This document shows, piece by piece, positions 29,704 to 46,676 of a stretch of DNA of 64,000 bases (position 1 is the first letter of the stretch; each line of letters opens with the position of its first letter). The notes beneath the pieces were generated by a model. That model ran no database searches, was not told the origin of the DNA, and saw only the letters and a program-made list of their open reading frames with translations. The translations under genes were made by a program, and so were the position numbers. This DNA is from Acetomicrobium sp. S15 = DSM 107314 (GTDB lineage Bacteria; Synergistota; Synergistia; Synergistales; Thermosynergistaceae): the NCBI RefSeq assembly GCF_016125955.1, contig NZ_JADEVE010000073.1, positions 1 through 64,000 on the forward strand. The letters run 5' to 3'.

Positions 29704-29755
29704 CACTGCTTATGGTATTTGATATGTGTCTTTTATATCAAGGAGGTGGATGAGG

Positions 29756-31117
29756 GTGGTAGAGAGGGAAAGTTTAGCGACGCGTCTCGGTTTTATTTTA
29801 GTCTCTGCGGGTTGCGCCATAGGGCTTGGGAACGTCTGGCGCTTCCCCTTTATCACAGGTCGTTATGGAGGGGCTGCTTTTGTCATCATGTATCTGGTCT
29901 TTCTCGCCATATTGGGTTTCCCCGTGATGGTGGCGGAGTTTGCCATGGGCAGGGCCAGCAGACGGAACCTGGCAGGGGCCATGCTCGCTTTGGAACCGAA
30001 GGGGACGAAATGGCACATCTACGGCTATATCGGCGTATTGGGGAACTTAATCCTTATGATGTTTTATACTGTGGTATCGGGTTGGTTTTTCGCCTACTTC
30101 TTCCGTATAGCGATGGGTAGATTTGTGGGTTTAACGCCCGATCAGGTAGGAGCAACCTTTGGCGCGTTTTTAGGCAACACGACGGAGCTCATCGTTTGGA
30201 CGATCGTTGTAATAGCTCTTGGCTATGGCATATGTGCTATAGGTTTGAGGGCCGGCGTGGAGCGGGCAGCGAAGTTTTTGATGACCGGGCTTTTCTTATT
30301 GATGATAGTTCTTGTCGTGAGGGCAATCGCTCTACCCGGCGCTGGGAAGGGTTTGGCCTTTTACCTGAAGCCGGATTTCAGCAAATTCACCTGGGAGGCG
30401 GCGTATGCTGCTATGGGCCAGGCATTTTTCACGCTGAGTTTAGGCATAGGCAGCATGCTCATCTTTGGCAGCTATATCGGCAGGGAGCGGTCACTCGCGG
30501 GGGAATCCGTTTATGTCATACTCATTGACACGACCGTGGCGCTCTTAGCTGGTTTCATCATATTTCCCACCTGCTTCGCCTTCGGCGTCGATCCGGGCGC
30601 AGGGCCGGGCCTGATATTCGTGTCGCTGCCCAACATATTTAACGCTATGGCCGGCGGTCGCTTTTGGGGTTCACTCTTCTTTCTCTTCATGATATTTGCC
30701 ACCATGACGACGGTCATCGCAGTCTTTGAACACCTCGTGGCCTTCATCATGGACGAATGGCGTTGGAGCAGGGGGAAGGCTTGCCTGGCGTTGAGCATCA
30801 TAACCTTCATAGCTGCCCTTCCTTGTGCCTTGGGCTTTGGTCCATGGAGCGGCTTTGCCCCCTTGGGCCCCGGCACTGTAGTCCTGGACCTGGAGGATTT
30901 CATCGTGAGCTCCAATCTGTTGCCTATAGGCTCGCTCTTGTTCGTCATATTTTGCACGGCGAGATATGGCTGGGGTTGGGACAACTTCATTAAGGAAGCG
31001 AACGCCGGCTCCGGCATGAAGTTTCCGATGTGGCTTCGCGGTTACATGACTTACGTTTTGCCCATAGTGATATTAGTGCTGTTGATTATGGGCTACATAG
31101 ATTTCTTCTCCAAATAG
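29756..31117 (+). CDS. Sodium-dependent transporter, NSS/SNF family
   Basis: About 453 residues with 11-12 membrane helices. The first helix carries the sodium/substrate-binding signature SAGCAIGLGNVWRFPFITGR and GGAAFVIMYLVF, characteristic of LeuT-fold neurotransmitter:sodium symporters. Prokaryotic members take up amino acids such as leucine, tryptophan, tyrosine or alanine with Na+. The start is uncertain: GTG 29756 has AGGAGG at optimal spacing, while ATG 29750 lies only three bases after it. It is a single gene between the transposase remnant and the liv operon, and fits an amino-acid-consuming lifestyle. Confidence 0.92.
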   Translation: MVERESLATRLGFILVSAGCAIGLGNVWRFPFITGRYGGAAFVIMYLVFLAILGFPVMVAEFAMGRASRRNLAGAMLALEPKGTKWHIYGYIGVLGNLILMMFYTVVSGWFFAYFFRIAMGRFVGLTPDQVGATFGAFLGNTTELIVWTIVVIALGYGICAIGLRAGVERAAKFLMTGLFLLMIVLVVRAIALPGAGKGLAFYLKPDFSKFTWEAAYAAMGQAFFTLSLGIGSMLIFGSYIGRERSLAGESVYVILIDTTVALLAGFIIFPTCFAFGVDPGAGPGLIFVSLPNIFNAMAGGRFWGSLFFLFMIFATMTTVIAVFEHLVAFIMDEWRWSRGKACLALSIITFIAALPCALGFGPWSGFAPLGPGTVVLDLEDFIVSSNLLPIGSLLFVIFCTARYGWGWDNFIKEANAGSGMKFPMWLRGYMTYVLPIVILVLLIMGYIDFFSK

Positions 31118-31152
31118 TGCGGTTTACTTATTAGAGTGTTGCCTTGAACTGC

Positions 31153-31181
31153 TTGACTTTCTTTGCGGTGGGCGTTATATA
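31153..31181 (+). promoter_or_regulatory. Putative promoter of the liv-grd operon
   Basis: TTGACT (31153-31158), 17 bases, TATATA (31176-31181; TATACT two bases later is an alternative). A leader of about 110 bases precedes the livK ATG at 31300. Confidence 0.6.
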
Positions 31182-31299
31182 CTCTCGTTTAAGAGAAATG
31201 CGTAAGGTAACATACATGAGTGAGGGGGTGGGAGACGGCGAAAAAATAGGTTAGAATATTGTCAAATGAGACCAATACGCAAAGGGGGTTTGAGAAGAG

Positions 31300-32433
31300 A
31301 TGAAAAGGATGATAGGTGTACTCATCTGCGCGGCGTTTCTATTGTGTGGTGGAGGATTTGCGCTGGCGGCAGATCAGGAGCCGATAGTCATCGGTTTCAA
31401 CTTGGAGATGACCGGGCAGGTAGCGGCTTACGGCCAGGCCGCGTGGGAGGGTGCCAACCTCATCAAGGATATCGTAAAGCCCGAAGTCCTCGGCAGGCCT
31501 GTTGTATTCAGGCTTCTGGATAACAAGTCGGATCGGGTAGAGGCCGCAAATGCTGCAGCCAGGCTCATCGAACACGATAAGGCTGTAGCCATCATCGGCA
31601 CTACGATAAGCGGCAACATGCTCGCTGCTGGTGAGGTCTGCGAAAAGAACAAGGTTCCCATCATCGGACCTACCACTACAAATCCGCTGACCACGCAGGG
31701 CAAAAAATATGTCTTTAGAGCTTGTTTCATCGACCCCTTCCAGGCCAGGATTGCTGCGACCTATTGCTATCGCGATTTGGGAGCTAAGACTGCTGCGATC
31801 CTCTCCGATATATCGAACGACTACTGCGTGGCGCTGGGCAAGTTCTTCCAGGAGCAATTCGAGGCCCTCGGCGGCAAGGTCGTATCAGTGACCTATTGCA
31901 AGGCAGGCGACCAAGACTACAGTGCACAACTGACCGAGATCAAGTCCAAGAACCCTGATGTCATTTATATACCTAATTATTATACAGAGGCTGCTCTTGC
32001 CATACGCCAGGCGAGAGACCTCGGCATTACTCAGCCTGTCTTCGGTGCCGATGGCATTGCTACCGAGGAGTTCCTTGCGATCGGCGGCTCGGCTGTTGAG
32101 GGCGTCCAGCACACCACCTTCTGGCATGAGAAGGCTGCGGTGACCGAGATAGGCAAGAAGTATGTTGAGCTTTACAAGCAGAAGTTCGGCCAGGATAAGG
32201 AAGTCAACGTCTTCGGCGCCCTTGCTGCCGATTGCTACCTCATAGTGATGGACGCCATTAGAAGGGCCGGCAGCGCCGATCCTACCGCCGTAGCTCAGGC
32301 TATAGAGGATACGGAAAACCTCGAGGTCGTAACCGGGCCGGTAACGATTGAAAATGGCGACGCCATAAAACCCGTGGTCTTCCGAGTGGTCAAAAACGGC
32401 AGGTGGGAGTACAGCTCCATCGTATACCCGTAA
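31300..32433 (+). CDS. livK: Branched-chain-amino-acid-type ABC transporter substrate-binding protein
   Basis: 377 residues with a signal peptide (residues 1-23, ending ALAA) and a type I periplasmic-binding (Peripla_BP_6) fold: IVIGFNLEMTGQVAAYGQAA, VAAIIGTTISGNMLAAGEV-type ligand-loop segment, then PNYYTEAALAIRQARDLG and VFGADGIATEEFLAIGG. LivK-like proteins bind branched-chain or other amino acids, amides and related ligands; specificity is not predictable here. It is first gene of an operon with livH, livM::livG, livF, grdA and grdC, which makes amino-acid or betaine-type substrates plausible. The inverted repeat after it may keep receptor expression above that of the permease genes. Confidence 0.93.
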   Translation: MKRMIGVLICAAFLLCGGGFALAADQEPIVIGFNLEMTGQVAAYGQAAWEGANLIKDIVKPEVLGRPVVFRLLDNKSDRVEAANAAARLIEHDKAVAIIGTTISGNMLAAGEVCEKNKVPIIGPTTTNPLTTQGKKYVFRACFIDPFQARIAATYCYRDLGAKTAAILSDISNDYCVALGKFFQEQFEALGGKVVSVTYCKAGDQDYSAQLTEIKSKNPDVIYIPNYYTEAALAIRQARDLGITQPVFGADGIATEEFLAIGGSAVEGVQHTTFWHEKAAVTEIGKKYVELYKQKFGQDKEVNVFGALAADCYLIVMDAIRRAGSADPTAVAQAIEDTENLEVVTGPVTIENGDAIKPVVFRVVKNGRWEYSSIVYP

Positions 32434-32470
32434 ACTCATCTTTTTTCAAGGGAGCTTTGGCTTGGAGATG

Positions 32471-32508
32471 GGGCAAGGAGGGCTGGGGGTTACTCCTTGC
32501 CCTTTGTT
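32471..32508 (+). terminator. Attenuator-like hairpin between livK and livH
   Basis: GGGCAAGGAG (32471-32480) and CTCCTTGCCC (32493-32502) form a perfect 10-bp stem with a 12-base loop, followed by TTTGTTGATT. A partial terminator here would raise binding-protein levels relative to downstream genes. Confidence 0.6.
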
Positions 32509-32536
32509 GATTATCTTAGGAAGAAGGTGAACGTGA

Positions 32537-33430
32537 GTGAACTTGGAGGCCCTCATACAACAACTTATGAATGGCCTGTCGTTGGGTAGTCTTTATGCGC
32601 TTATCGCCATAGGATATACGATGGTGTATGGCATACTTCGGCTGATAAATTTTGCCCATGGCGATATATTTATGGTAGGAGCTTATTGCGCATTCTTTTT
32701 TGTGGCGATTTTTCGCCTTCCATGGTTTTTGTCTGCCCTTCTGGCCATAGGGCTCACTGCGCTGGTCGGCATGTCCGTCGAGAGGATAGCCTACCGCCCG
32801 GTGAGAAATGCTCCGAGGATTTCTGCTCTAATAACAGCTCTCGGCGTGTCGTTTTTTATAGAGAACCTGGGCCTCGTAACCGTCGGCGCTCGTCCAAAGG
32901 CCTTCGCGAGGCCGGAAATCATGGCGAAAGTCGTAAAGATAGGGCCTGCCGCCGTTTCTGCTGTCTCGATATGGGTGCCCATATTGAGCGTACTCCTTCT
33001 TTTGGCTTTGATGTATGTGGTCTATCGGACCAAGGCCGGCATGGCAATGAGGGCTGTATCCACCGACATCGAGACCACTCGCCTAATGGGGGCGGATGTG
33101 GACAGGATAATCTCTTTTACTTTTGCTTTAGGGTCTGCCTTGGCTGCAGCCGGAGGGATAATGTGGGCGTGCAAATATCCTCAAATAAACCCTCTAATGG
33201 GCATCTACCCTGGGTGGAAGGCCTTCACCGCTGCGGTGGTCGGCGGCATAGGCAACATAACCGGAGCCATGTTGGGAGGACTGTTGATCGGCATGGTTGA
33301 GATAATGACCGTAGCATTTTTCCCAGGCCTTTCGGGTTACCGTGACGGCATAATCTTCACGCTCCTTTTGGTGTTTTTGCTCGTCAAGCCCACGGGCATC
33401 CTTGGCGAATCCTTGAAGGAAAAGGTGTAA
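32537..33430 (+). CDS. livH: Branched-chain-amino-acid-type ABC transporter permease LivH
   Basis: 297 residues and about eight membrane helices. LivH features: QQLMNGLSLGSLYALIAIGY and GILRLINFAHGDIFMVGAY at the N-terminus, then the cytoplasmic coupling loop with AMRAVSTDIETTRLMGADVD near residue 180 (an EAA-like loop) and the FTAAVVGGIGNITGAMLGG region. The start is GTG at 32537. It forms the membrane channel together with the LivM part of the next gene, whose start is only four bases away. Confidence 0.93.
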   Translation: MNLEALIQQLMNGLSLGSLYALIAIGYTMVYGILRLINFAHGDIFMVGAYCAFFFVAIFRLPWFLSALLAIGLTALVGMSVERIAYRPVRNAPRISALITALGVSFFIENLGLVTVGARPKAFARPEIMAKVVKIGPAAVSAVSIWVPILSVLLLLALMYVVYRTKAGMAMRAVSTDIETTRLMGADVDRIISFTFALGSALAAAGGIMWACKYPQINPLMGIYPGWKAFTAAVVGGIGNITGAMLGGLLIGMVEIMTVAFFPGLSGYRDGIIFTLLLVFLLVKPTGILGESLKEKV

Positions 33431-33434
33431 CGGC

Positions 33435-35333
33435 ATGGAGAACAGACGATTGTCAAACCTGCTCACGGCCGTGTCGGTGGGAGTGCTCTTCGTATTTTTG
33501 TGGTGGGCCAATAATAATCTCGACCAGTTTACGTTGAGGGTCATGCGCACTGGTGCTGTTTATATAGTAGCTGCGGTGGCATATAATTTGGTTAACGGAA
33601 TAACTGGACAATTTTCGCTGGGGCCAAACGGTTTCATGGCCATAGGCGGGTATGCCATGGCACTTTTAATGCTTCCGCTGGAACAGAAGAAATTCGTCTG
33701 GTTTTTGGAGCCTCAAATGTGGCCCTTCAACTCCTTTTCCCTCTCCGGGGAATTCTTCATTGTGGCGCTCATCGTGGGTGGCCTCTTAGGTGCCTTAGGT
33801 GCGTTAACAGTGGGCATACCTTCGTTCCAGTTGCGCGGCGATTATTTGGCCATAGCCACGTTCGGCTTCGGCGAGATCATATTTGTCTTGGCCAACAACC
33901 TCATCCCCTTTACCAACGGTCCCCTGGGGATAAAGGGGATACCGGAGTATGCCAATATATATTGGTGCTTCGGTTCCGCCGTGGTGGCTACCCTCTTTGT
34001 AAAGAACTTGGTCAATTCAAGCTATGGAAGGGCAATGAAAGGCATAAGAGAGGATGAAATAGCCGCTGAAGCTATGGGCGTGGACATCTTTCGCACGAAG
34101 ATGCAAGCTTTCCTCGTGAGCGGTTTCTTCGCCGCTGTGGCCGGCGGCCTCCTCGGGGCTCTGGTCACTACGGTTTCTCCCAGCCTCTTCACTTTTATGA
34201 TGACTTTTAACCTCCTAATAATCATAGTCCTTGGAGGATTGGGCAGTATAACCGGTTCGGTGATAACCGCTTTCGGTTTTGCCGTGGCGATGGAACTGCT
34301 GCGAGTTATGGAGGCCCCGATAAACATCGGCCCGATCCACCTGCCTGGCATAGCCGGTATGCGGATGGTCATCTTTTCCATTCTCCTCATAGTGCTCATG
34401 ATCTTCTGGAGGCGGGGTCTTTTTGGCCAATGGGATTTTTCGTGGAATTGGCTGCTCTCTAAGATTGGCATAACGTCAAAGGCTGCAGAGGCTATTTCGC
34501 CAGTCGAACAGAGTGGTTCGTCGGGGTCAACTGTCACTTCCGTTGGAGCGGAGATCCACGAGGATGGAGTGTTAATGAGCCTTCAAAATCTCACAATACG
34601 CTTCGGCGGCTTGGTGGCCGTGAGCGATTTTTCCTTGGATATCAAAAAAGGCGAGATAGTGGGGCTAATAGGCCCGAACGGGGCTGGCAAGACGACCATA
34701 TTCAACATGATAACTGGCCAGTATACTCCGGATTCTGGGCGCATATTCTTTGATGGCAGTGATATAACCGGATGGCGTCCGAATCTCATCGCCAAAGTGG
34801 GGATAGCGCGCACCTTCCAGAACATTCGCCTCTTTGGAGAACTGTCCGTGTTGGACAACGTCCTGGTCTCAGAGCACTTAGGGATCAAATCCTCCCTATT
34901 GACTGCCGCCCTCGGGCTTCCCAAGTATCTCTCTGAGGAAAAGGAAGCGAGATCGCGGGCCATGGCGCTTTTGAGGCTGGTCGGCTTGGCGGATCTTTAC
35001 GATGTACAGGCAGGGGCGCTGCCTTACGGTCAGCAGAGGCAGCTGGAGATCGCCAGGGCCTTGGCTACCCATCCGAAGCTGCTGCTCTTGGACGAGCCTG
35101 CTGCAGGCATGAACCCGGAGGAAACCAAGAGGCTCATGGCCTTCATACGAGAGTTGCGCGATCGATTTTCCTTGACTATCTTCCTGATCGAACATCATAT
35201 GGAAGTGGTGATGGGCATATGCGAGCGGATAAGAGTCCTGGATTATGGCGTATCGATCGCGGAGGGCACACCTAAAGAAATACAGACCAATCCGCGGGTC
35301 ATCGCGGCTTACTTGGGGGAGGAAGAGGGATGA
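33435..35333 (+). CDS. Fused permease-ATPase of a branched-chain-type ABC transporter (LivM-LivG fusion)
   Basis: 632 residues. Residues 1 to about 350 are a LivM permease ([37 protein letters not shown], coupling loop [17 protein letters not shown]). A Ser/Gly/Glu-rich linker (about 350-380) follows, and residues 381-632 are a complete LivG ATPase: Walker [10 protein letters not shown] at 413-421, [16 protein letters not shown] signature, [13 protein letters not shown] Walker B and the IEHHMEVVM switch. These are separate genes in most bacteria, including the second set at 61.8-64 kb in this window. An internal ATG at 34575 with GGAG five bases upstream could also give free LivG. No frameshift is needed. 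Confidence 0.93.
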
Positions 35334-36037
35334 TGCTCGCGATAGAAAACCTTCATGTCTACTACGGGGGCATTCATGCCCTTAAAGGGATTTCCATGGA
35401 GGTGCCGGAGGGCTCCATCGTTACCCTCATAGGGGCCAATGGGGCCGGGAAGAGTACGACGCTTCGGGCTATAACGGGTCTGATTAGGCCTCGGCAGGGT
35501 TCGGTAAAGCTGAAAGGAAGGGACATAAACAGGCTCCCCACACATCAGATTGTTCAGTCCGGCGTGGCTATGGTGCCGGAGGGGAGGAAAATCTTTCGGA
35601 ACCTCACCGTCAGAGAGAACCTGATGATGGGCGCTTACCATCGCAGCGATGCGTCTGCCGTGCAAAGGGACTTTGAATACGTCATCAGCCTCTTTCCGAG
35701 GCTCGAAGAGCGTTTGTCCCAAAAGGGCGGGACCCTTTCAGGTGGAGAGCAGCAGATGCTTGCCATTGGCAGAGCCCTCATGTCTGGACCGTCGCTTTTA
35801 TGCCTCGATGAACCATCGCTCGGCCTTGCGCCGCTCCTCGTGCGTGAAGTCTTTAAGGCCCTGGAGAACGTTCATGATGAGGGGCGCACCATCTTGCTGA
35901 TAGAGCAGAATGCGAGGGCAGCTCTAAAGTTAGCCGACTATGCCTATGTCCTCGAGACCGGCGTCATAAAGATGCAGGGAAAGGCGAGCAATCTCTTGGA
36001 GAACGAAGATGTCCGCAAGGCTTACTTAGGCGGTTAG
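35330..36037 (+). CDS. livF: Branched-chain-amino-acid-type ABC transporter ATPase LivF
   Basis: 235 residues, a typical LivF. Walker A is IGANGAGKST, the signature TLSGGEQQMLAIGRALM, Walker B LLCLDEPSLGLAP, and the tail has the LivF-specific GKASNLLENEDVRKAYLGG ending. It is the second ATPase of the heteromeric pair with the LivG domain of the preceding fusion. The ATG overlaps the previous stop by four bases (ATGA). A run of six G residues downstream serves the next gene, grdA. Confidence 0.94.
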   Translation: MMLAIENLHVYYGGIHALKGISMEVPEGSIVTLIGANGAGKSTTLRAITGLIRPRQGSVKLKGRDINRLPTHQIVQSGVAMVPEGRKIFRNLTVRENLMMGAYHRSDASAVQRDFEYVISLFPRLEERLSQKGGTLSGGEQQMLAIGRALMSGPSLLCLDEPSLGLAPLLVREVFKALENVHDEGRTILLIEQNARAALKLADYAYVLETGVIKMQGKASNLLENEDVRKAYLGG

Positions 36038-36054
36038 TGAAGGGGGGATAGGCC

Positions 36055-36525
36055 GTGAAAGACCTGCGCGGCAAGAAGCTCATACTCTTGGGAGATAGCG
36101 ACGGCGTTGCTTCCTCTCTTATGGAAGAGTGCTTTGCCGGTGAAGGAGAGGTCGCCTTTTCTGCGACGGAGTGCTTCCTCTGACGCGGCCTTTTGGCCAT
36201 GGACTGGCAGGTGCAGTCGAAGGTAAAAGAGATCGCATCCGCCTGCGGCGCCGAAAACGTCGTGGTGGTTTTGGGCGTCCGCGATCCCGAGGCGGCTAAA
36301 ACTTATGCGGAGACCGTGACTGCAGGCGATCCCACCTTTGTCGGTCCCTTGGCCGGGGTCCCGTTGGGACTCACCGTCTGTCACATCCTGGAACCGGAGG
36401 TTATGGAGAGAATTGAACCTTCCCTGAGAGAGAGGCTCGAGGCACTAAAGGGGAGCGAAAGCGCAAGGAGCGCGGCAGATGCCGTAAGGAGGGTCAGAGA
36501 GCGATCTGGCCGCCGCGATCCATGA
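36055..36525 (+). CDS. grdA: Glycine/sarcosine/betaine reductase complex selenoprotein A (in-frame UGA = Sec)
   Basis: 156 residues if the TGA at 36181-36183 is read as selenocysteine (residue 43). Before it lies LRGKKLILLGDSDGVASS and FSATECFL; after it, AMDWQVQSKVKEIASACG, the strand VVVVLGVRDPEAAKTYAETV, then TAGDPTFVGPLAGVPLGLTV and HILEPEVMERIEP. This is the GrdA family, whose redox motif is CFxU. Length matches the family (about 155-160). GrdA carries the carboxymethyl-selenoether in reductive (Stickland) deamination and passes it to protein C as ketene. The residues after Sec (RGLLAMD) differ from the usual TAAGAMD. Start GTG with GGGGGG upstream, 17 bases after livF. An ordinary gene caller would truncate or lose it. 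Confidence 0.92.
36202..36218 (+). promoter_or_regulatory. Candidate bacterial SECIS hairpin for grdA
   Basis: GACTG (36202-36206) and CAGTC (36214-36218) pair around a 7-base loop GCAGGTG, which contains the GGU typical of SelB-binding apical loops. The hairpin starts 18 bases after the TGA at 36181, within the usual window. A second self-complementary segment GGCC-TTTT-GGCC (36187-36198) lies between them and could stack below or compete. Confidence 0.5.
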
Positions 36526-37907
36526 GCGACGTAGAGGTGGCGGGGTTTGCCTTCTGCCTCGCCCATGTGCCGGACCTCGTCAAAGGAGACAATTGCCCCA
36601 TAGGAGACGCGGTATGGGATTACGATCAGGTTTGCGCCTATGTCCCCAATCAAGCGTGCATAGGCGGCATAGATCTCGAGGCATTGGCGCTACATCCGCG
36701 TCCCTGGCGCGAAAACCCCATCTGTAACGCGGGTAGGTGGGGCAAGTTCGGAGAGATTATGCCTCAGGAGGAGTTTCTGGCCCTCTTACAGATATGTGAT
36801 TCCTTCGGTTTCGTCTCTCTGGAAGAGGTGTTTGCGCAGCGCTCTTTCGAGAAGCTCGCCGCTCATCCGCTAATGAGTGGAAACCTGTTGGCTAAGCTCA
36901 GGGATGGGTGTCAGGCGGCAGAAATAGAAGAAAGGGTTCGAAAGGGAGCTCTTCCGATCCGCTCTCGTGGCGAGGTGGTAGGATGTGTACGCGATGGCGG
37001 CGATCCTTTTCTTTCCCCGCTCCTTTTGCTCGAAAATCTCTCTTGCAAGGCTATCGGCGCATTGGCCCTCCTGCACCTGCTGTCCGCCGCAGGCCTTTCG
37101 CCCGATGATTTGGATTACGCGATCGAATCTTCCATGTGTGCCGCCGGAGACGGGGTCGCCAGAGGATGCGGCGGCTTTGCCAGGGCTTGTGCTGAGGTGC
37201 TGGGCTGCAGCAACGCCGGCGGCTGCGATATCAGGGCTTCCGAAGCTGGTCCAGCTGCCGGTGTGATAGCCGGCGCCGCTCAGGTTGCCTGTGGGCTGCG
37301 GCGCAATGTGGCTATCATAGCCGGTAGCTCCTTCTCCGAACTACACCGTAGCAGCTTTGAGCTGCGCAAAAAGGGGTTGCCGATGGCGTGTGATTGCATC
37401 GGAGGCGTCGCCATCCTCTTAACGCCGGCGGGCGGGAGGTCTCCTATTTTGCGCCTCGACGCCGTCGGCAGGCTTCCTATAGGCGTGGGATCTTCGCCGA
37501 GGGTGCTCGTCTCGCACCTGGTCTTTGACCCGCTCGATAGGGCTGGTCTTTCTGCGTCGTCGGTGGACAAATACGCCGTATGTTTGAGCAATCCTGAAAT
37601 ATGCGCCCCGCTCGGGCTTGGCGATCCGGCGGAAGATAGTGTTAAAATGATCGCGGCTTCGGCTTCGATGAGGGGGGAAATCGAGAGAGGAGAGGTGGAG
37701 GGTTTTGTAAAGCGACACGGCACCCATGGTTTCATCTCCTGTGGCGGACCGCTCGCCTCCGGCGTCTCCTATCTGGGGCACTTTGCTGAAGCTGCAAGCA
37801 AGGGGAAGGCGCGCATCGCAATGGTAGTTGGCAAGGGAAGCCTTTTCCCATCTCGTCTGACAAATCAGGTTGAGGGCGTTTCCTTCATCGTGGAATTTCC
37901 TGCGTGA
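36522..37907 (+). CDS. grdC: Glycine/sarcosine/betaine reductase component C, GrdC-like (beta) subunit
   Basis: 461 residues of the GrdC family, distantly related to ketoacyl-ACP synthase III. Family features include the N-terminal AFCLAHVPDLVKGD, the AYVPNQACIGGIDLEAL segment, and the thiolase-like SSMCAAGDGVARGCGGFARA region with a candidate nucleophile cysteine. KRHGTHGFISCGGPLASGVS near the C-terminus may hold the His partner. In the described complex GrdC pairs with GrdD to form protein C, which turns carboxymethyl-selenocysteine of GrdA into acetyl phosphate. The ATG overlaps grdA by four bases, so the pair is translationally coupled. GrdD is not adjacent. It is somewhat shorter than typical GrdC (about 510). 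Confidence 0.82.
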   Translation: MSDVEVAGFAFCLAHVPDLVKGDNCPIGDAVWDYDQVCAYVPNQACIGGIDLEALALHPRPWRENPICNAGRWGKFGEIMPQEEFLALLQICDSFGFVSLEEVFAQRSFEKLAAHPLMSGNLLAKLRDGCQAAEIEERVRKGALPIRSRGEVVGCVRDGGDPFLSPLLLLENLSCKAIGALALLHLLSAAGLSPDDLDYAIESSMCAAGDGVARGCGGFARACAEVLGCSNAGGCDIRASEAGPAAGVIAGAAQVACGLRRNVAIIAGSSFSELHRSSFELRKKGLPMACDCIGGVAILLTPAGGRSPILRLDAVGRLPIGVGSSPRVLVSHLVFDPLDRAGLSASSVDKYAVCLSNPEICAPLGLGDPAEDSVKMIAASASMRGEIERGEVEGFVKRHGTHGFISCGGPLASGVSYLGHFAEAASKGKARIAMVVGKGSLFPSRLTNQVEGVSFIVEFPA

Positions 37908-37974
37908 GTAGGTCAGATGAGCCTTTATCTTACTGTCAAAGTTGAATAATATAAGAAAAGAGGGATTCGTCATC

Positions 37975-39921
37975 GTGGTTAATAAGCTATTGTTGTTGGA
38001 GGGCTTCCCCAAAGAGAGGCTTTCGGAAGGTGATATCGCCGAGTTCGGCGAAGCTGCGCGCTTGGCGAGGCAGTGGGTTTTAACCATGACCACAGCAGCC
38101 AACAGCGGGCACCCAGCAGGGTCGCTCTCAAGTATGGAGATGTATTTGGTTACCTACGCTGTCTCCAGCTTGCGCCCTCACAATGCCGACTCGCTGGATC
38201 GCGACTTCATCGTAATAAGCCATGGCCACACATCACCCGGGGCATATGCGGCGTTGGCATACTATGGCTTCTTATCCCCCGAAGAGCTGTTGGGGAATTT
38301 CAGGCGCGCCGGCAGCCCTTTTGAGGGGCACGTGGAGAGGGGGTGCCCTGGCGTAGATTGGGGGACTGGCAACTTAGGCCAGGGCTTGGCCGCCGGCGTC
38401 GGTTTTGCCCTCGCCATGAGGGCCAGGGGGGCCAAAAACCACGTCTATGTCCTCATGGGCGATGGCGAACAAGTGAAGGGACAGGTAGCTGAAGCAAGGC
38501 GCATCGCTAACAAGGAAAAGTTGGGCTCGATCACTGCCCTTATAGATTATAACCACATCCAGATATCCGGACGAGTGGAAGAGATCATGCCGGCCGATAT
38601 AGCAACTTTGTGGAAAGCCGACGGCTGGCTCGTCTATGAGTGCGATGGCCACGATGTCGATGCCATCTACAGGGCGCTTCGCGGCGCTGTCTTCGATGGG
38701 AGACCTTCTGTCATCCTGTGCCATACGCTCATGGGCAAGGGCGTTTCCTTCATGGAGGGCAGTCCTGAGTTTCATGGGAAGGCCGCCACCAAAGATTTAT
38801 ATATAAAAGCCATGGAGGAGCTGGGTGGCTCTCCCGAGCTGTTGGAGAGGGCGCTCGCAGCGCGCCGCGGGCCCTTGCCCAAAAAGAAGCGCATACCTTC
38901 CCCGGCGGTTGCGATCGATACAGGAGAGGTACGCGCCTATGCCGCCGGGGAGAAACTGGACAATAGATCTGCCTTCGGCAACGCCTTGGTCGATGTCGGC
39001 TCCTTAAATTATGACAAGGAAGGCCATGCGCCCATCTTGGTCTTCGACTGCGATCTCGCCGGCTCGGTGAAGACGGAGGAGTTCGCAAAGAGGTGCCCCG
39101 ACTGGTTCATCGAGGCCGGCATCCAAGAGCACGCCACTGCAACGGCATCTGGTGCTGCGTCATGCGCCGGCGTTGTGAGCTGCTTTGCCGATTTCGGTGT
39201 CTTCGGCTTGGGCGAGGCTTACAACCAACAGCGGCTGAACGACATAAATGGGGCGAACTTGAAACTCTTTTTGACCCATGTAGGGCTGGATGTGGGCGAA
39301 GACGGCGCTACGCACCAATGTATAGACTACGTCGGCCTGCTGCGCAATACCTTCGGCTGGAGGCTCGTCGTTCCGGCCGATCCAAACCAGACGGATCGGG
39401 CCGTGCGCTGGGCCCTTTCGGCCGGCGGCAATGTCTGCGTCGCCATGGGGCGCAGCAAAGTTCCCGTCGTCGTGCGAGAGGACGGGTCGCCGTTTTTCGC
39501 AGGCGACTATGCCTTCCGCTACGGCGCCATGGAGCTGTTACGCGACGGCTCCGATGGGGCGATCCTCGCTATGGGGGCTATGGTCCACAAGGCCATCGAG
39601 GCATGGGAGAGCTTGCGCGCCTCCGGTTGCAGCGTCAAGGTGTATAGCGTATCATGCCCGCTTGAGCTCGACGATTCGGCCTTAAAAGATGCCGCAAAGA
39701 CGGGCCTGATTGTCACCTATGAGGATCACCATGTAAGAAGCGGTATGGGGTCGCTCGTGGCGTTTCGTTTGGCCGAGATGGGCATAACCCCTCCGCTCTT
39801 TAAAGCCTTGGGTGTTCATCGCTACGGCGATTCGGGCGCTGCCCCTGAAGTCCTCTCCGCGATGGGGCTTTCCGTAGAACACCTGGTCGAGGCCATTAGG
39901 GGGCTCACGATTCAAGGGTGA
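37975..39921 (+). CDS. tkt: Transketolase
   Basis: About 648 residues covering both transketolase halves in one chain. The N-terminal TPP-binding part has NSGHPAGSLSSMEMY, VISHGHTSPGAYAAL, GNLGQGLAAGVGFALAMRA and MGDGEQVKGQ. The pyrimidine-binding part begins around DNRSAFGNAL, with the catalytic Glu in AGIQEHATATASG. A C-terminal regulatory domain follows. It interconverts pentose-phosphate sugars and supplies ribose and erythrose phosphates. The GTG at 37975 with AGAGGG upstream is my choice; an in-frame TTG lies at 37942. It follows grdC by 67 bases and may share its transcript. Confidence 0.93.
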   Translation: MVNKLLLLEGFPKERLSEGDIAEFGEAARLARQWVLTMTTAANSGHPAGSLSSMEMYLVTYAVSSLRPHNADSLDRDFIVISHGHTSPGAYAALAYYGFLSPEELLGNFRRAGSPFEGHVERGCPGVDWGTGNLGQGLAAGVGFALAMRARGAKNHVYVLMGDGEQVKGQVAEARRIANKEKLGSITALIDYNHIQISGRVEEIMPADIATLWKADGWLVYECDGHDVDAIYRALRGAVFDGRPSVILCHTLMGKGVSFMEGSPEFHGKAATKDLYIKAMEELGGSPELLERALAARRGPLPKKKRIPSPAVAIDTGEVRAYAAGEKLDNRSAFGNALVDVGSLNYDKEGHAPILVFDCDLAGSVKTEEFAKRCPDWFIEAGIQEHATATASGAASCAGVVSCFADFGVFGLGEAYNQQRLNDINGANLKLFLTHVGLDVGEDGATHQCIDYVGLLRNTFGWRLVVPADPNQTDRAVRWALSAGGNVCVAMGRSKVPVVVREDGSPFFAGDYAFRYGAMELLRDGSDGAILAMGAMVHKAIEAWESLRASGCSVKVYSVSCPLELDDSALKDAAKTGLIVTYEDHHVRSGMGSLVAFRLAEMGITPPLFKALGVHRYGDSGAAPEVLSAMGLSVEHLVEAIRGLTIQG

Positions 39922-39963
39922 CGTTAAAGAGCGCAAATTACCCATAAGCAAGAGGAGTGAAAT

Positions 39964-41055
39964 ATGCGCAAGGTCTTGGTTGTATTGCTTCTGACAGCGC
40001 TGATATCGGCAGGGGTTGTTTTCGTCGTTCGGCCGTGGAAAAGTGTGACTGTGGCTGTCCTTTTTCCGGCTTCTGGCGTCGGCGCCCCTTTAGGTCTTTC
40101 ACTGACACAATCCCTTCTTTGGGCCTTCGATTACTTTAACGAACGGTCTTTTGTCCCCGAATACCGCCCCGTCGTCATAAAGACTGACGACGTAGAGGAG
40201 GGTATAAAAGAAGCCATCAATTCCGGTGCCGTCGTCATTGTGGGCGCCTCCACATCCACTTATGCCTCGCGCCTTCAGAAAGCCGCGGACGAAGCCGGAC
40301 TTTCCGTCATATCGGTGGGCGCGCTTTCGCAGGCGCTGGCCGAAAAGGATAACCTCTTTCGCCCTCACAGCGGAACGGACGAGGCCTTTGTAATGGGCGA
40401 AATATTGTGCAAATCCGTTTCGCGCTACGCCGTTTTCGCCTCGGCGCAAAATCCCATATACGTGGTGTCGTTCCTCGATGCACTAACAGCCGGCATGGGT
40501 GGCGTGCGGCCGTATGTCTACTTGAGTGCTGACGGCGGGGCGAGCAGAGAGATGCTCTTTTCTGCCTTAGCTGAGATAATGGAAAGCGATGCGGTTGTTT
40601 TGGTGCTGCCGGACTTTTCGTCGGCCGTGGTCGTGAGACAGTTACGTTATCTTTACCTCGACATGCCCATTTGGATAGCAAGCTGGGGTGCTACGGCGCG
40701 CTTCGCCGAAATCGCCGGGTCGATGGGCGAGGGCGTATGCACGATCGCCTCCTGGAGGCCGGATGCCTTGGAAGCTTCGCATCCTTTCGTACAATACGTC
40801 AGGAGGCTTTATGGAGACGAATTGGACCCGTTCCCTCTTACGTTGGCTTATGACGCCGTAGCCATGCTCGACGAGGCTATAAGCAGAGGAGAAATCGACA
40901 AAGTCAGCATAGCGAAAGAGCTCGGCGAGATTCGCAGCGTAGTTGGCATAAATGGCCCCTTTGTGGTGGACGAAAACGGCGATGGTCATCCTCCCCTCTA
41001 TCTCCAAGAGGTTTCAAAAAGGCGCTGGCGCCTTTTGGAGGTCTTATCGCCATGA
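39964..41055 (+). CDS. Periplasmic type I ligand-binding protein, putative sensor partner of the HD-GYP protein
   Basis: 363 residues with an N-terminal signal anchor (about residues 3-22) and a Peripla_BP_6/LivK-like fold: VAVLFPASGVGAPLGLS, the VVIVGASTSTYASRLQKAAD ligand loop, VISVGALSQALAEKDNLFR and SHPFVQYVRRLYGDELDPFP near the C-terminus. The anchor lacks a lipobox and a clean cleavage site, so the protein may stay tethered. It is not beside a permease; its stop overlaps by four bases (ATGA) the start of a membrane HD-GYP sensor. This arrangement suggests ligand-binding input to a signalling protein rather than transport. Confidence 0.8.
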   Translation: MRKVLVVLLLTALISAGVVFVVRPWKSVTVAVLFPASGVGAPLGLSLTQSLLWAFDYFNERSFVPEYRPVVIKTDDVEEGIKEAINSGAVVIVGASTSTYASRLQKAADEAGLSVISVGALSQALAEKDNLFRPHSGTDEAFVMGEILCKSVSRYAVFASAQNPIYVVSFLDALTAGMGGVRPYVYLSADGGASREMLFSALAEIMESDAVVLVLPDFSSAVVVRQLRYLYLDMPIWIASWGATARFAEIAGSMGEGVCTIASWRPDALEASHPFVQYVRRLYGDELDPFPLTLAYDAVAMLDEAISRGEIDKVSIAKELGEIRSVVGINGPFVVDENGDGHPPLYLQEVSKRRWRLLEVLSP

Positions 41056-43220
41056 GCTTGCGGCGCCTGATACGCATCACCCTTTGTGTGTCTTTGATCG
41101 TCCTGTCTTTGGCCTTCGCCTTTTCGCTCTATAACACTATCAGGCGGTTCGGCGTCGCGGCGGAGGAGGCGATGGAAGCCACGGGTATGCTCGTCCTTTC
41201 CAACTCCGAAGCCCTGCTGTCGAGAGTGGAAGGCATTGTCTCCTTTCTTAACGAGGATGAGGAGTTGCCTTCGCATATGCTCCCTGAGGTGCGGCTGCTC
41301 CTATCGACCAACGGGCGGCTCATTGATCGCGTTTACAGGGGGTATCTGCCTGCGGTCTTGCATCTGCCCCAGTCACTATTCGCGGATGAGTGGCAGGCCA
41401 CAGACCTGGTTTCTTTCGATGGGCGCGTACTTTTGGTCCGTTCGCTCCAGACGCCGCTCGATGAGTTCATCGTAGGGGTTGACCCCGCCGAGCTTCTCGG
41501 AGACCTCCAGCGCTTTGATCTCCCCTTCAGATTTCATTTGGCCGTCGTTGACCAGAGAGGCCGCGTCTTATGGGTCCACCGAGCCAAAGCCACCGAGGCG
41601 CTCGCCCTAAGGGGCGCAGTTCCTGTGGGTATATTGGAAGGCGGTAGCTGGAGACAATTTCGCCCTGCGGGAGGGGAAGGCCTATTGTTGAAGGCAAAAA
41701 CCGTGGGGAACGGCTTGGTCTTGATCTCTGTGGTCCCTTTTAGCGGGCTCTTCGTATGGCTCGCCAGGCTCGCTTTCCCCTTCGTCATCGCTGCTTCAGG
41801 CTTAGCCCTACTCTTGTTTTTCTTGGGGCGCTTTTTGAGGCGGAGTCTCTTCTTTCCGCTCTTCGAAGTCGCAGCCCTGGCCAAAGCCTTTGGACAAGCC
41901 TTGAGGAACAGCGACCCCCTCGATATTGCCGGAAAGACGGAGGAGCTATCTGTGCGTATAAGCGAGAGGCATTCCGGCGCCGTAGTAGAGGAGTTGCAAA
42001 ACTTCATCGAGGGTTTGGCCGAAGCCCTCGAGGTTATGACGGCCCAACAGGAGGAGCTCGCCGCATATAGTGAGGAAGTAAAGGCGGTAAACGCCTCCCT
42101 GACCGAGGCTAACGAGCTCTTGAGGCGAAGGGAAGAGGCATGGCGAAGGGCGCTCGAAGCGACGCATTTGGCGACCGGCGGAGTCGACATCAAGGAGAAT
42201 CTGCGGAGCATCGCTGGGGTGGTTCGCTCTGCCTGCGACGCCTTCGGCGTGATCATAAGTCGCGTCGAAGGCGAAGAGGTGCGCGTCTTCACATGGAGCG
42301 GTTTCGGTGCGGATGGATTGACGATCGATAAAATACCGGCCAAAGAATCGTCGGTGGCTCAGGCATTGGAGGAAGCACGGCCCATTTGGATTGAGGACGC
42401 TGCGGCGGCGGGACGCTATACGTCGGCTCATCCGGCCGTAAGAAGCGAGTTGAACCTACCGTTGATGCATGGCGGAAAAGGCGTAGGAGGGCTTACGGTC
42501 TGCTTCGAAGAATGCCGCACCGCGGATAGCGAGCTCGTTGAGATGATTTCTCCCATCGCTTTGGCCGTATCGGGGCTCTTAGCTTCTTTCGAGGCTCAGG
42601 AAGAGTTGCGCGAGTCGTATTACTATACGGCGTCGAGGCTCCAAGTTGCTACTGCATATTATCACGACGAGACGGCAGAGCACTTGGAGAGAATGGGCGC
42701 GTATTCGAGCCTCTTGGCAAGAGCTTTAGGGCGCTCATCTGAAGAGGTCGAAACGATAGGCCATTTTTCCAAACTCCACGATATAGGGAAGATTAAGATT
42801 CCACTCGACATATTATCCAAGCCAGGGCCGCTTTCTGACGATGAGTTTGAAATAATTAAATTGCATACTATCTGGGGCGCTGAGATCATAGGCCCTTCTG
42901 ATTGGCTTGCCGTTGCCAGAAAGATTTGTCTCTATCACCATGAGCGCTATGATGGAAGCGGCTATCCCTATGGTCTTTTGGGCGAAGATATTCCCTGGGA
43001 AGCGCAAGTTGTGGCCATAGCTGACGTCTACGACGCCTTGCGGTCGAAGAGGGCCTATAAACCTCCCTTTGACCACGAGAGAGCCTGCCGGATAATCCTC
43101 GATGGGGACGAGCGCCTGCGATCCGGCGCCTTCGGCCCCAAAATGCTTGACATCTTTAGGGCGCTACATAAAGAGATGGCCGAGATCTACGACCTCCACG
43201 CCGAAGACGATGCGCTATAA
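41052..43220 (+). CDS. Membrane sensor with GAF and HD-GYP domains (probable cyclic-di-GMP phosphodiesterase)
   Basis: 722 residues. Helix 1 (about 8-28) and helix 2 (about 238-262) flank a periplasmic sensing domain. Then come a HAMP-like linker, a coiled coil (about 320-365), a GAF domain (about 385-525) and a C-terminal HD-GYP domain (about 545-710) with HFSKLHDIGKIKIP, LYHHERYDGSGYPYG and ADVYDALRSKRAYKPPFDHE. All key HD-GYP residues are present, so it should hydrolyse cyclic-di-GMP. Its start overlaps the preceding binding-protein gene, so the two are likely coupled like a receptor-sensor pair. Confidence 0.9.
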   Translation: MSLRRLIRITLCVSLIVLSLAFAFSLYNTIRRFGVAAEEAMEATGMLVLSNSEALLSRVEGIVSFLNEDEELPSHMLPEVRLLLSTNGRLIDRVYRGYLPAVLHLPQSLFADEWQATDLVSFDGRVLLVRSLQTPLDEFIVGVDPAELLGDLQRFDLPFRFHLAVVDQRGRVLWVHRAKATEALALRGAVPVGILEGGSWRQFRPAGGEGLLLKAKTVGNGLVLISVVPFSGLFVWLARLAFPFVIAASGLALLLFFLGRFLRRSLFFPLFEVAALAKAFGQALRNSDPLDIAGKTEELSVRISERHSGAVVEELQNFIEGLAEALEVMTAQQEELAAYSEEVKAVNASLTEANELLRRREEAWRRALEATHLATGGVDIKENLRSIAGVVRSACDAFGVIISRVEGEEVRVFTWSGFGADGLTIDKIPAKESSVAQALEEARPIWIEDAAAAGRYTSAHPAVRSELNLPLMHGGKGVGGLTVCFEECRTADSELVEMISPIALAVSGLLASFEAQEELRESYYYTASRLQVATAYYHDETAEHLERMGAYSSLLARALGRSSEEVETIGHFSKLHDIGKIKIPLDILSKPGPLSDDEFEIIKLHTIWGAEIIGPSDWLAVARKICLYHHERYDGSGYPYGLLGEDIPWEAQVVAIADVYDALRSKRAYKPPFDHERACRIILDGDERLRSGAFGPKMLDIFRALHKEMAEIYDLHAEDDAL

Positions 43221-43255
43221 TGCCTTAAGAGTTGCAATCTCGTGGGGTGGTTATT

Positions 43256-44035
43256 TTGCTTAAAGCCGGCGATATAGTATACCTTTGGTCCTCAAAGCTC
43301 GAAGACGGATTCTTGCTCTCTTTGGTCCCCGGCAGGAGGTTGGGTTCTCACGTAGGGGTCATCGGTCATGATGACATATTGGCTTCCGATTACGGCAAGG
43401 CCGTCATGACCCATACCGGCCATTCGTTTTATATACTTAAGCCGATGCTCGGGGAATATACCAGAAAGCTCAAGCGCAAGACTCAGATAGTATTCCCCAA
43501 AGAAACGGGCTTCATCCTCCTCTATTTGGACATTTTCCCTGGGGCTACTGTCGTGGAGTGCGGCACCGGTTCCGGTAGTCTGACGGCAACACTCGCTCAT
43601 TTCGTGGGAGACGGGGGAAGGGTCATATCCTATGACAGGAGAGGCGAGTTCTCGAAGCTCGCCGAAGAAAATTGTAAGCTTTGGAAGGTTGCCCACAGGG
43701 TGACATTCAAGGTGCGCGATATAGCTGAGGGCTTCGACGAACGGGAGGCGGATGCTGTCTTTCTCGACCTGCCAGACCCGTGGAATTATCTCCATCATGC
43801 GATTTTAGCTTTGGCGCCTGGCCGCAGACTCGGCATGATCCTGCCCACAACGAATCAGGTGCAGCGAGCGTTGGCCGCACTGAAAGAGCAGCGCTTTGCA
43901 GACATCCAGGTTATCGAGGTAATGCACAGATATTGGAAAACAGACCCTGAGAGGTTGCGCCCCGAGGACATGATGGTGGGGCACACCGGATATCTGATCT
44001 TTGCAGCTCGCGTCGAGGCTCAAGAGGCGCAGTGA
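43256..44035 (+). CDS. trmI: tRNA (adenine-N1)-methyltransferase, TrmI family
   Basis: About 259 residues with a TrmI-type N-terminal beta domain (LKAGDIVYLW) and a class I SAM-binding fold: VVECGTGSGSLTATLAHFVG (motif I), GRVISYDRRGEF, and DAVFLDLPDPWNYLHHA (motif IV region with DLPDP). TrmI forms m1A at position 58 (and often 57) of the tRNA T-loop, a stability modification common in thermophiles. The preferred start is the TTG at 43256 (GGGGTGG upstream), which gives the usual short N-terminus; the frame is open from 43232. Its stop overlaps queH (GTGA). Confidence 0.9.
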   Translation: MLKAGDIVYLWSSKLEDGFLLSLVPGRRLGSHVGVIGHDDILASDYGKAVMTHTGHSFYILKPMLGEYTRKLKRKTQIVFPKETGFILLYLDIFPGATVVECGTGSGSLTATLAHFVGDGGRVISYDRRGEFSKLAEENCKLWKVAHRVTFKVRDIAEGFDEREADAVFLDLPDPWNYLHHAILALAPGRRLGMILPTTNQVQRALAALKEQRFADIQVIEVMHRYWKTDPERLRPEDMMVGHTGYLIFAARVEAQEAQ

Positions 44036-44583
44036 CCCCTGAGAAGGCGCTTCTGCACGCATGCTGCGCACCCGATGCCATCGTCCCCTGGAGAGTTCTC
44101 GTCGATGAAGGGTTGGACGTCGTTGGATATTTCTACGGTTCCAACATCCACCCGGCGGATGAGTACAGCAAAAGGCGCGAAGCCGTAGAGAGGTTGGCCC
44201 GCGAGATGGGCGGCTCTGTTGTTTTTGCGCCTTACGAACCTGAGACATGGATGGCCAAGGTGCGACATCTGGCTGGCGAGCCCGAGGGTGGGAAGAGGTG
44301 CGCCCTATGTTTTGCCTTGCAGCTCGAATCCGCCCTTGCAGAAGCCCTCATAAGGCGATGTGACGCGATGGCGACAAGCCTTACGGTAAGCCCCCACAAA
44401 GATCCCGATATGATAAACGCCCTTGGGCGTGCGCTATGTCGGGCGGCGGGGATCGAGTGGGTGGATCGAATCTGGCGGAAAGGGGGAGGTTTCGCCCTCT
44501 CCGTCGAAGAGAGCCGTCGCCTTGGACTTTACAGGCAAAAGTATTGCGGCTGCATCTATAGCATTCCAAAGAAAGAGGGATAG
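44032..44583 (+). CDS. queH: Epoxyqueuosine reductase QueH
   Basis: 183 residues with the QueH (DUF208) pattern: LLHACCAPDAIVPWRVL at the N-terminus, FYGSNIHPADEYSKRREAV, GGKRCALCFALQLESAL with a CxxC pair, SLTVSPHKD, and LYRQKYCGCIYS at the end. The conserved cysteines bind an iron-sulfur cluster and metal. QueH carries out the last step of queuosine synthesis in tRNA, as an alternative to QueG. The start is a GTG overlapping the trmI stop, so two tRNA-modification genes are coupled. Confidence 0.9.
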   Translation: MTPEKALLHACCAPDAIVPWRVLVDEGLDVVGYFYGSNIHPADEYSKRREAVERLAREMGGSVVFAPYEPETWMAKVRHLAGEPEGGKRCALCFALQLESALAEALIRRCDAMATSLTVSPHKDPDMINALGRALCRAAGIEWVDRIWRKGGGFALSVEESRRLGLYRQKYCGCIYSIPKKEG

Positions 44584-44586
44584 GCC

Positions 44587-45576
44587 ATGAACGCAAAAAG
44601 GGGCCGTGTCGGCAAGCTGCCGCCTCCGGTCTTGGAGAGATTGGTGTTGGGGTTGCGGGGTTTTGAGAGGCGAGAGGTGATGATCGGTCCCTCTGTAGGC
44701 GAGGACGCGGCCGTCATAGGCTGGCCGGCTGGGAGGTTTTTGCTGGCGGCATCCGATCCGATCGTAGGGGCTAAGGCCGGGGCCGGCAGGCTTTTAGTGC
44801 ACGTGAACGCCAACGACATCGCTGCCAAAGGGGGAGAGCCGGCATATTTTCTGGCCACGTTGATATTCCCATCCTATGGCGACGAGGGCGATATCGCGCT
44901 TCTCATGAAAGAGATGGATGAAGCGTGCCGCGAGATCGGCGTGGCCATAGTCGGTGGACATACAGAGTTCGGCATGGGGTACGAAAAACCGGTGATCGTG
45001 GGTACCATGTTGGGCCAAGGCAGAAGAGTCCTCAGGGCGGAGTCGATAAGGCCTCGCGACGTCATCATCGTCACCAAGCACGTTGGCCTCGAGGGTATGA
45101 CGATATTGGCGAGCGACAGGCCCGATCTTTTAAAGGAGATCTTGAGCGACGAAGAGATGGCAGAGGCGTTGCGCTGGAAGGAAGGGCTTTCAGTCCTTCC
45201 TGAATCACGTCTCTTGAGGGACGTGGCGCGCTTCATGCACGATCCTACAGAGGGGGGCTTTCAGGGCGCCCTTCAGGAGGTGCTGCGCACCGCTCGCCTC
45301 GCCGCCGAAATAGACAGCGATGCTGTGCCGGTTCATCCTATAACGGCTAAGGTCGCATCCCTCCTCGGCTTCGATCCGTTGCGCCTTATATCTTCCGGGG
45401 CGCTCCTTGCGGTCTTGCCGCCGGAGTGCGCTGACGAGGCGATAGCGAGCCTGCGGGCGCAGGGGATAGAGGTGTCCGCCGTCGGCTGCGTTACAGATGA
45501 GGCATATGTGGAGGAAGAGCCGGCACAGGAGGAGCTGTGGCGGCTGCTCGAGCTTCCTGGCGGTGAAAGAGCGTGA
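44587..45576 (+). CDS. AIR-synthase (PurM/HypE-like) family protein of unknown substrate
   Basis: 329 residues with the two-domain PurM/HypE/ThiL-like fold: GPSVGEDAAVIG (N-terminal nucleotide strand), HVNANDIAAKGGEPAYFLAT, VAIVGGHTEFGMG, a second domain starting VIIVTKHVGLEGM, and FMHDPTEGGFQGALQEVL. These are ATP-dependent enzymes that activate an amide or carboxylate. It differs from the hypE at 26.9 kb in lacking the C-terminal cysteine motif, so it is not a second HypE. Close spacing to queH (3 bases) and overlap with the M24 gene suggest co-expression. The reaction is unknown. Confidence 0.8.
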   Translation: MNAKRGRVGKLPPPVLERLVLGLRGFERREVMIGPSVGEDAAVIGWPAGRFLLAASDPIVGAKAGAGRLLVHVNANDIAAKGGEPAYFLATLIFPSYGDEGDIALLMKEMDEACREIGVAIVGGHTEFGMGYEKPVIVGTMLGQGRRVLRAESIRPRDVIIVTKHVGLEGMTILASDRPDLLKEILSDEEMAEALRWKEGLSVLPESRLLRDVARFMHDPTEGGFQGALQEVLRTARLAAEIDSDAVPVHPITAKVASLLGFDPLRLISSGALLAVLPPECADEAIASLRAQGIEVSAVGCVTDEAYVEEEPAQEELWRLLELPGGERA

Positions 45577-46676
45577 CATACCGGCATGCGGCCGAGCGCC
45601 TCGAAGGTTTGCGGGCGCAGCTTCGCGATCAAGTCCTGGATGGCTTTGTGCTATTCGTGACGGAGGGGTCCAATTGGGAGGGGGCCTACTACGTATCGGG
45701 GTTTCGTGGTTCAAGTGCTACCCTCCTCATCACCCACGACGAGGAGATTTTGATCACCGATGGGCGATACACGGTTCAAGCCGAGGAGCAGTCGCGTTTT
45801 AAGGTGGTGGATCAGGGTCAAAGGCAAACCCTGGAAGTATTGAAGGATCTCATTGATGCAAGGCGATTGCGCCGCATAGGCTTCGAGGGGGAGCGCATAA
45901 GCTACGCTCTGTTCAAGAAGCTCGAGGATATGGATGTAAAGTGGATCGATTCCTCGTTCATTATCCCGTCGCTTCGACGGTGCAAGGACCCACTTGAGGT
46001 ATCTTATATCAGAAAGGCCGCCGCTTTTGCCGCATCTGCGCTGGAGGAAGCCCTCGACTCCTTCGTGCCGGGCGATGCGGAAGTGAAGCTTTCTGCGCTT
46101 TTGGAGTTTCGCCTCCGCATGAGTGGGGCCGAAGGGGGATGGAAAAGTCACGAATTCATCGTCGCTTCGGGAGAGCGGAGCGCCCTCCCCCACGGCGCTC
46201 CCACCGACAGGCGCCTGATGCCGGGCGAATGGCTCACATTGGACTACGGCGCCAGATATGAGGGTTACGTGTGCGACATAACGCGCAACGTGGCGGCCAA
46301 AAGGCGCTATGCCTGGGCCTATGACGTTCATAATTTGCTCTCCGAGGCGCAAAAGGCGGCACTCGAAGTGATGAAGCCGAATGTAGCCGCCAGGGATGTC
46401 GACGCTGCTGCGCGAGCCGTTATACAGAGGGCCGGTTTTGGTGCGTATTTTACCCACGGCCTCGGTCACGGCATAGGGCTCGAGTTGCACGAAGCTCCTC
46501 GGCTTTCGCCTAGTTCCGACGACGTCCTCAAAGAAGGCGACGTGGTGACCGTCGAGCCGGGGGTCTACGTTAAGGGGCGAGGGGGGTTGCGCCTGGAAGA
46601 CGATTATTTGATAACGGCCGATGGCTCCATTTGTCTAACGGAAGGAGTCCCAAAGGAGTTCTTTCTCATCGGCTGA
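45573..46676 (+). CDS. Xaa-Pro aminopeptidase-type M24 metallopeptidase
   Basis: 367 residues with an N-terminal creatinase-like domain (about 1-125: YYVSGFRGSSATLLIT, EILITDGRYTVQAEEQ) and a pita-bread catalytic domain. The two-metal ligands are recognisable: Asp in LTLDYGARYEGYVCD and CDITRN, His in HGLGHGIGLELHE, Glu in VTVEPGVYVKG and in GLRLEDDYLIT. It removes N-terminal residues before proline from peptides, fitting a proteolytic amino-acid fermenter. The GTG start overlaps the upstream stop by four bases. Its 3' end overlaps the convergent galE by 11 bases, leaving no room for a terminator. Confidence 0.92.
   Translation: MTYRHAAERLEGLRAQLRDQVLDGFVLFVTEGSNWEGAYYVSGFRGSSATLLITHDEEILITDGRYTVQAEEQSRFKVVDQGQRQTLEVLKDLIDARRLRRIGFEGERISYALFKKLEDMDVKWIDSSFIIPSLRRCKDPLEVSYIRKAAAFAASALEEALDSFVPGDAEVKLSALLEFRLRMSGAEGGWKSHEFIVASGERSALPHGAPTDRRLMPGEWLTLDYGARYEGYVCDITRNVAAKRRYAWAYDVHNLLSEAQKAALEVMKPNVAARDVDAAARAVIQRAGFGAYFTHGLGHGIGLELHEAPRLSPSSDDVLKEGDVVTVEPGVYVKGRGGLRLEDDYLITADGSICLTEGVPKEFFLIG

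Follow-up and report, generated by a model that had tools for sequence, protein, structure and literature searches.

What does a glycine reductase selenoprotein do in a genome that appears unable to build glycine reductase? GrdA is a component of the glycine, sarcosine and betaine reductases, in which it takes over the fragment of the substrate from protein B and hands it to protein C. The question is raised by a 64,000-nucleotide stretch of DNA from Acetomicrobium sp. S15 = DSM 107314 (hereafter the window; its genome is termed G000), in which two open stretches separated only by a TGA codon had been predicted to encode a single full-length GrdA.

A divergent grdA gene with an in-frame UGA

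Translation of positions 36055-36525 (forward strand, GTG start) with TGA read as selenocysteine (Sec) yields a 156-residue protein that ends at a TGA stop at 36523. The in-frame TGA (36181-36183) becomes residue 43, and C40-F-L-U43 corresponds to the C-x-x-U redox pair of GrdA, at a position that aligns with the GrdAs of the phylum. The readthrough product scored 146 bits over residues 4-124 with the Pfam GRDA family PF04723 (cut-off 22) and 148 bits with the NCBIfam equivalog model NF040748, reduct_selen_A (cut-off 130), placing it above the curated cut-offs of both. A search of the whole genome recovered this single GrdA, with one TGA within it. Thus, the two open stretches do form one gene, and these matches confirm, at the level of sequence, that 36055-36525 is a genuine GrdA selenoprotein gene encoding a divergent member of the family, which the in-frame UGA hides from plain gene calling.

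The motifs AGDPT and GPLAG are retained in the window GrdA, and 32 of the 74 positions that are invariant among canonical Synergistales GrdAs are changed. The original prediction was also right in calling the protein divergent on account of the residues after Sec, RGLL in place of the usual TAAG. In the canonical Synergistales GrdAs that were read, as in those of Peptoclostridium, Enterococcus and Acetoanaerobium, Sec is followed by TAAG, and in Photobacterium by TSAG; RGLL is identical in a sister genome (G001). A fold search with the confidently predicted GrdA model (pLDDT 90) found nothing with an E value of 0.001 or lower, and no solved structure related to the predicted fold was found that points to a partner.

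Predicted decoding of the UGA codon

If the UGA is read as Sec, the organism should encode SelA, SelB, SelD and tRNA-Sec, and searches of the genome found all four. The tRNA-Sec scored 77.6 bits and was called by ARAGORN as tRNA-SeC with anticodon tca, SelB scored 369 bits, SelA, whose gene directly adjoins that of SelB, 569 bits, and SelD 346 bits. The selD gene has its own in-frame TGA, within the active-site motif AGUAAK (locus L073, G000:C388:123188-124117), making SelD a second selenoprotein. A search for FdhA gave nothing over the cut-off, the weak FdhA-like matches being free of TGA. Among the families searched (GrdA, SelD, FdhA and PF07355), GrdA and SelD were the only selenoproteins found, and, SelD aside, no client of the Sec machinery other than GrdA came to light. 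The window itself also encodes an AIR-synthase-family protein (44587-45576) that resembles HypE and SelD and falls below every cut-off.

Homologues ending at the UGA position, which were named at the outset as a sign of a pseudogene, were not seen; the listed GrdA matches spanning the region, from a survey of 188 phylum genomes, have one internal TGA. These matches bear on whether translation might instead stop at the UGA, with a Sec-less 3' part restarting at TTG 36193 or ATG 36199. Such starts do open a 110-residue ORF, but the part before the UGA is conserved and includes C40, which is invariant, the sister genome has the same UGA, the genome encodes the Sec machinery and none of the phylum homologues seen was without the UGA, rendering a split gene extremely improbable. 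As judged from homology, from conservation and from the decoding genes in the genome, the grdA UGA is predicted to be decoded as Sec, whereby SelA, SelB, SelD and tRNA-Sec would produce the 156-residue selenoprotein.

A nearby SECIS-like hairpin had also been proposed. A candidate bSECIS hairpin, GACUG-GCAGGUG-CAGUC (36202-36218, forward strand), starts 18 bases past the TGA and contains GGU in its loop, which begins after a 23-nt spacer past the UGA. The hairpin fits the bSECIS model of PMC13188914 (Fig. 2) and also forms in the sister genome, with one loop change. Its position and loop are therefore as predicted, but the hairpin alone proves little because 416 of the 1865 window TGAs (22%) fit the same model. 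The model is also matched by 24 of 47 GrdAs, and hence does not discriminate; the fold z-scores of the hairpin are about -1. An Rfam scan of 30000-46000 gave chance-level matches only, and scans for promoters and terminators scored no better than shuffled sequence.

The grdA locus and its counterpart in a sister genome

The genes around grdA all lie on the forward strand. An SLC6-type Na+ symporter (29726-31117) is followed by an amino-acid ABC transporter operon (livK, livH, fused livM-livG and livF; 31300-36037) that ends 17 bases before grdA. Downstream, a grdC-like gene (36522-37907), the ATG of which overlaps the grdA stop, is followed by a transketolase gene (37942-39921). Within Synergistales, the usual gene order of a grd locus is SLC6 symporter, grdX (labelled by position only), grdE, grdA, grdB, grdC and grdD, with transketolase further on. 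Because both ends of this locus are kept together with grdA and grdC, the window locus, with the liv operon between symporter and grdA, looks like a derived grd locus as judged from gene order. Transketolase was considered as a new metabolic partner and dropped, since the same gene is found beside the canonical grd operons of relatives (L068, L070 and L072) and represents ordinary synteny. A single 632-residue ORF of the liv operon (33435-35333) encodes the LivM permease joined to the LivG ATPase, a fusion also present in the sister genome.

The GrdA contig of G001 matches Synergistales bacterium 54_24 (LGFQ01000029.1), the only contig found by contig search. It carries the SLC6 symporter, livKHMGF, grdA, grdC and transketolase as an uninterrupted block that aligns without gaps and in which the TGA codon is unchanged, and its GrdA orthologue is 85% identical, again gapless. 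The comparison within the genus rests on these two genomes.

Absence of the other glycine reductase components

Neither G000 nor G001 gave a match to PF07355 or PF09338 (GrdB and GrdE, component B), nor to NF040747 (GrdD, component C alpha) at E 0.001. Canonical relatives searched alongside were positive for GrdB, GrdE and GrdD. The window genome is 99.87% complete. Both genomes are drafts (438 contigs for the window genome and about 150 for the sister), and grdB, grdE and grdD might be imagined to lie in assembly gaps; this is, however, very improbable given that neither assembly contains any of the three, that no break interrupts the locus in either and that the GrdC still present is without active-site residues.

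The GrdC-like protein is probably a pseudoenzyme

The protein encoded next to GrdA is of the thiolase/KAS III fold and matches the GrdC model NF040746 with 435 bits, under the equivalog cut-off of 450. It is 44-46% identical to canonical Synergistales GrdC. An alignment of 20 canonical sequences has 131 invariant columns; the GrdC-like protein conforms at 84 of these, for the most part Gly, Pro and other structural residues, and has lost the remaining 47. The lost residues include C203, H160, C241, H281, H318 and H410, with C241 replaced by Glu (Met in the sister), H318 by Leu, H410 by Pro and C203 by Ser. C241, which lies in the motif FCAGP of canonical GrdC, aligns with the catalytic cysteine of KAS III, and C241, H318 and H410 are invariant also in the GrdCs of Enterococcus, Acetoanaerobium and Photobacterium. 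Compared to canonical GrdC, the protein lacks a segment close to the N-terminus as well as the C-terminal tail. It contains 20 cysteines, compared with 5-16 in other GrdCs; eleven of these are new, at positions where canonical GrdC seldom or never has Cys, and both genomes share the full eleven. The model of the protein (mean pLDDT 60) matches the folds of KAS III, SpoVAD, thiolases, PqsBC and an SCP2-thiolase-like protein, and its low confidence limits any placement of the putative Cys-rich site. Thus, the GrdC-like protein is probably a pseudoenzyme from which the KAS III-type nucleophile and the invariant histidines have gone.

With no GrdB, GrdE or GrdD and a GrdC without catalytic motifs, an ordinary glycine reductase cannot, as judged from gene content, be made in this genus, and GrdA cannot be serving one. 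The open-access literature searched yielded no description of GrdA lacking GrdB, nor of the variant seen here, in which GrdA occurs next to a probable pseudoenzyme GrdC in a genome devoid of component B.

A different reductive pathway would be one in which an unrelated enzyme replaces GrdB and GrdE as the donor of a carboxymethyl or other group, and the altered GrdC handles the Se-bound intermediate by other chemistry. The retention in GrdA of the Sec pair, AGDPT and GPLAG agrees with such a pathway, as does the continued coupling of grdA and grdC as overlapping genes. Against this, GrdD is missing, GrdC retains neither the KAS III-type nucleophile nor the histidines and the operon holds no candidate replacement, the transketolase being syntenic with canonical grd operons too. 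We therefore consider a variant pathway quite unlikely.

Purifying selection on grdA and grdC

Comparison of the two genomes gave a dN/dS of 0.153 (0.10-0.22) for grdC, with 52 nonsynonymous and 93 synonymous changes (P 2e-23 against neutrality), and of 0.35 (0.18-0.71) for grdA (P 0.0014 against neutrality). Neither gene has an indel or a stop between the two genomes, at a dS of about 0.2-0.3. Both genes have been held by purifying selection since the split of the two genomes. The neighbouring genes have dN/dS values of 0.015-0.08, below those of grdA and grdC, and the constraint on these two is therefore looser than on their neighbours. The C-terminal part of GrdA is the least conserved between the two genomes. 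In trees, the window pair sits on very long stems, of about 3.4 (GrdA) and 5 (GrdC) changes per site.

The main rival explanation is slow decay, whereby glycine reductase was lost and grdA and grdC are relics on their way to becoming pseudogenes, kept temporarily by their operon. Three partner genes and the catalytic residues of GrdC are indeed gone, and the long stems, the raised dN/dS and the poorly conserved C-terminal part of GrdA also count in favour of decay. However, decay is weakened by the selection tests, with their strong synonymous excess, and by the complete lack of indels and stops, both as seen in two genomes. C40, U43, AGDPT and GPLAG are kept, moreover, and the new cysteines of GrdC are common to both genomes. 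Decay is, on balance, unlikely.

Around the UGA, in 36055-36260, synonymous change is low, affecting 3 of 44.5 sites, whereas elsewhere in the block it reaches 28.5% (binomial P 4e-4). Because livH holds a comparably quiet synonymous stretch and the region was picked after looking, this finding supports but does not prove constraint at the RNA level.

GrdA without GrdB elsewhere in Synergistota

Among the 188 Synergistota genomes surveyed, 132 have GrdA and 134 have GrdB; comparison of the two lists shows that seven of the 132 GrdA-bearing genomes are without GrdB. Two of the seven are G000 and G001. Another four (G030, G185, G155 and G182) belong to a different Synergistales family and include genomes that are 66% (G182) and 89% (G185) complete. 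The seventh, G083, is 82% complete with a canonical GrdA, and its missing GrdB is likely a gap. In the other family, one full locus (L103) has grdE and grdB before grdA, while L059, L081 and L082 are without both in a similar neighbourhood, and no GrdC was found in the genomes of these three. Their stand-alone grdA genes (L059 6902-7375, L081 6402-6857 and L082 around 2626) all encode C-x-x-U, two of them as ECPxUS. The Sec contexts are ECPDUSAAG, ECPTUSAIP and ECFVUTATG, such that C and U are retained while their surroundings drift. These independent orphans count in favour of the reuse of GrdA proposed below. The survey also revealed a natural GrdC-GrdD fusion, an 837-residue ORF (L085 4006-6519, genome G154) that matches both GrdC and GrdD.

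Discussion

We favour, with a probability of roughly 60%, the explanation that GrdA persisted after its complex was lost and was co-opted, together with a GrdC-like partner that no longer catalyses, into a selenol/thiol redox module, a function that is inferred. With the surrounding complex lost, no carboxymethyl group would be loaded on the selenol in the absence of GrdB and GrdE, and no acetyl phosphate would be made without GrdD and with a GrdC devoid of its nucleophile. The operon pair that remains, GrdA and a Cys-rich pseudo-GrdC, would have been reused as the redox module and would be expressed together with the amino-acid ABC transporter. GrdA could cycle via C40 and U43 with thioredoxin as reductant, the arrangement described for glycine reduction (PMC3091704). 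The GrdC-like protein, which we infer to act jointly with GrdA, may serve it as a docking, substrate-binding or thiol-relay partner. The broader proposal, that GrdA is active outside glycine reductase, as a new Se-dependent redox system with a Cys-rich GrdC here and as GrdA alone retained in a second family, stands at about even odds.

If the favoured explanation is true, GrdA would have a role of its own, having been kept with Sec and the decoding machinery after the loss of B and a catalytic C, and the locus would be a case of a selenoprotein operon rebuilt around a pseudoenzyme. For such genomes, pipelines that annotate glycine reduction on the strength of only grdA or grdC would be mistaken.

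How does this arrangement compare with known systems? The window GrdA resembles the GrdAs of glycine, sarcosine and betaine reductases over residues 4-126, in the place of C-x-x-U, in AGDPT and GPLAG and in its UGA codon. It differs from the canonical proteins in having RGLL where they have TAAG, in its C-terminus and in residing in a genome without GrdB, GrdE and GrdD. The GrdC-like protein shares the fold class of canonical GrdC (NF040746) and the same kind of operon neighbours, whereas its catalytic Cys and His residues are replaced, eleven cysteines are new, the score is below the cut-off and the GrdD partner is absent. Thiolase-fold proteins of the SpoVAD, PqsB and SCP2-thiolase-like kind can be without thiolase catalysis; these fold matches of the model are remote from it in sequence and have other roles. 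The orphan GrdAs of L059, L081 and L082 likewise keep C-x-x-U in genomes without GrdB and GrdC, but they have no GrdC-like neighbour, occupy a different locus and in two cases carry ECPxUS. Glycine reductase variation within Synergistota is represented by the fluoroacetate reductase farACEB of Cloacibacillus, in which B is varied while GrdA and C form the common part that is kept (PMC10838667). By contrast, in the window locus B is gone and the active site of C is lost.
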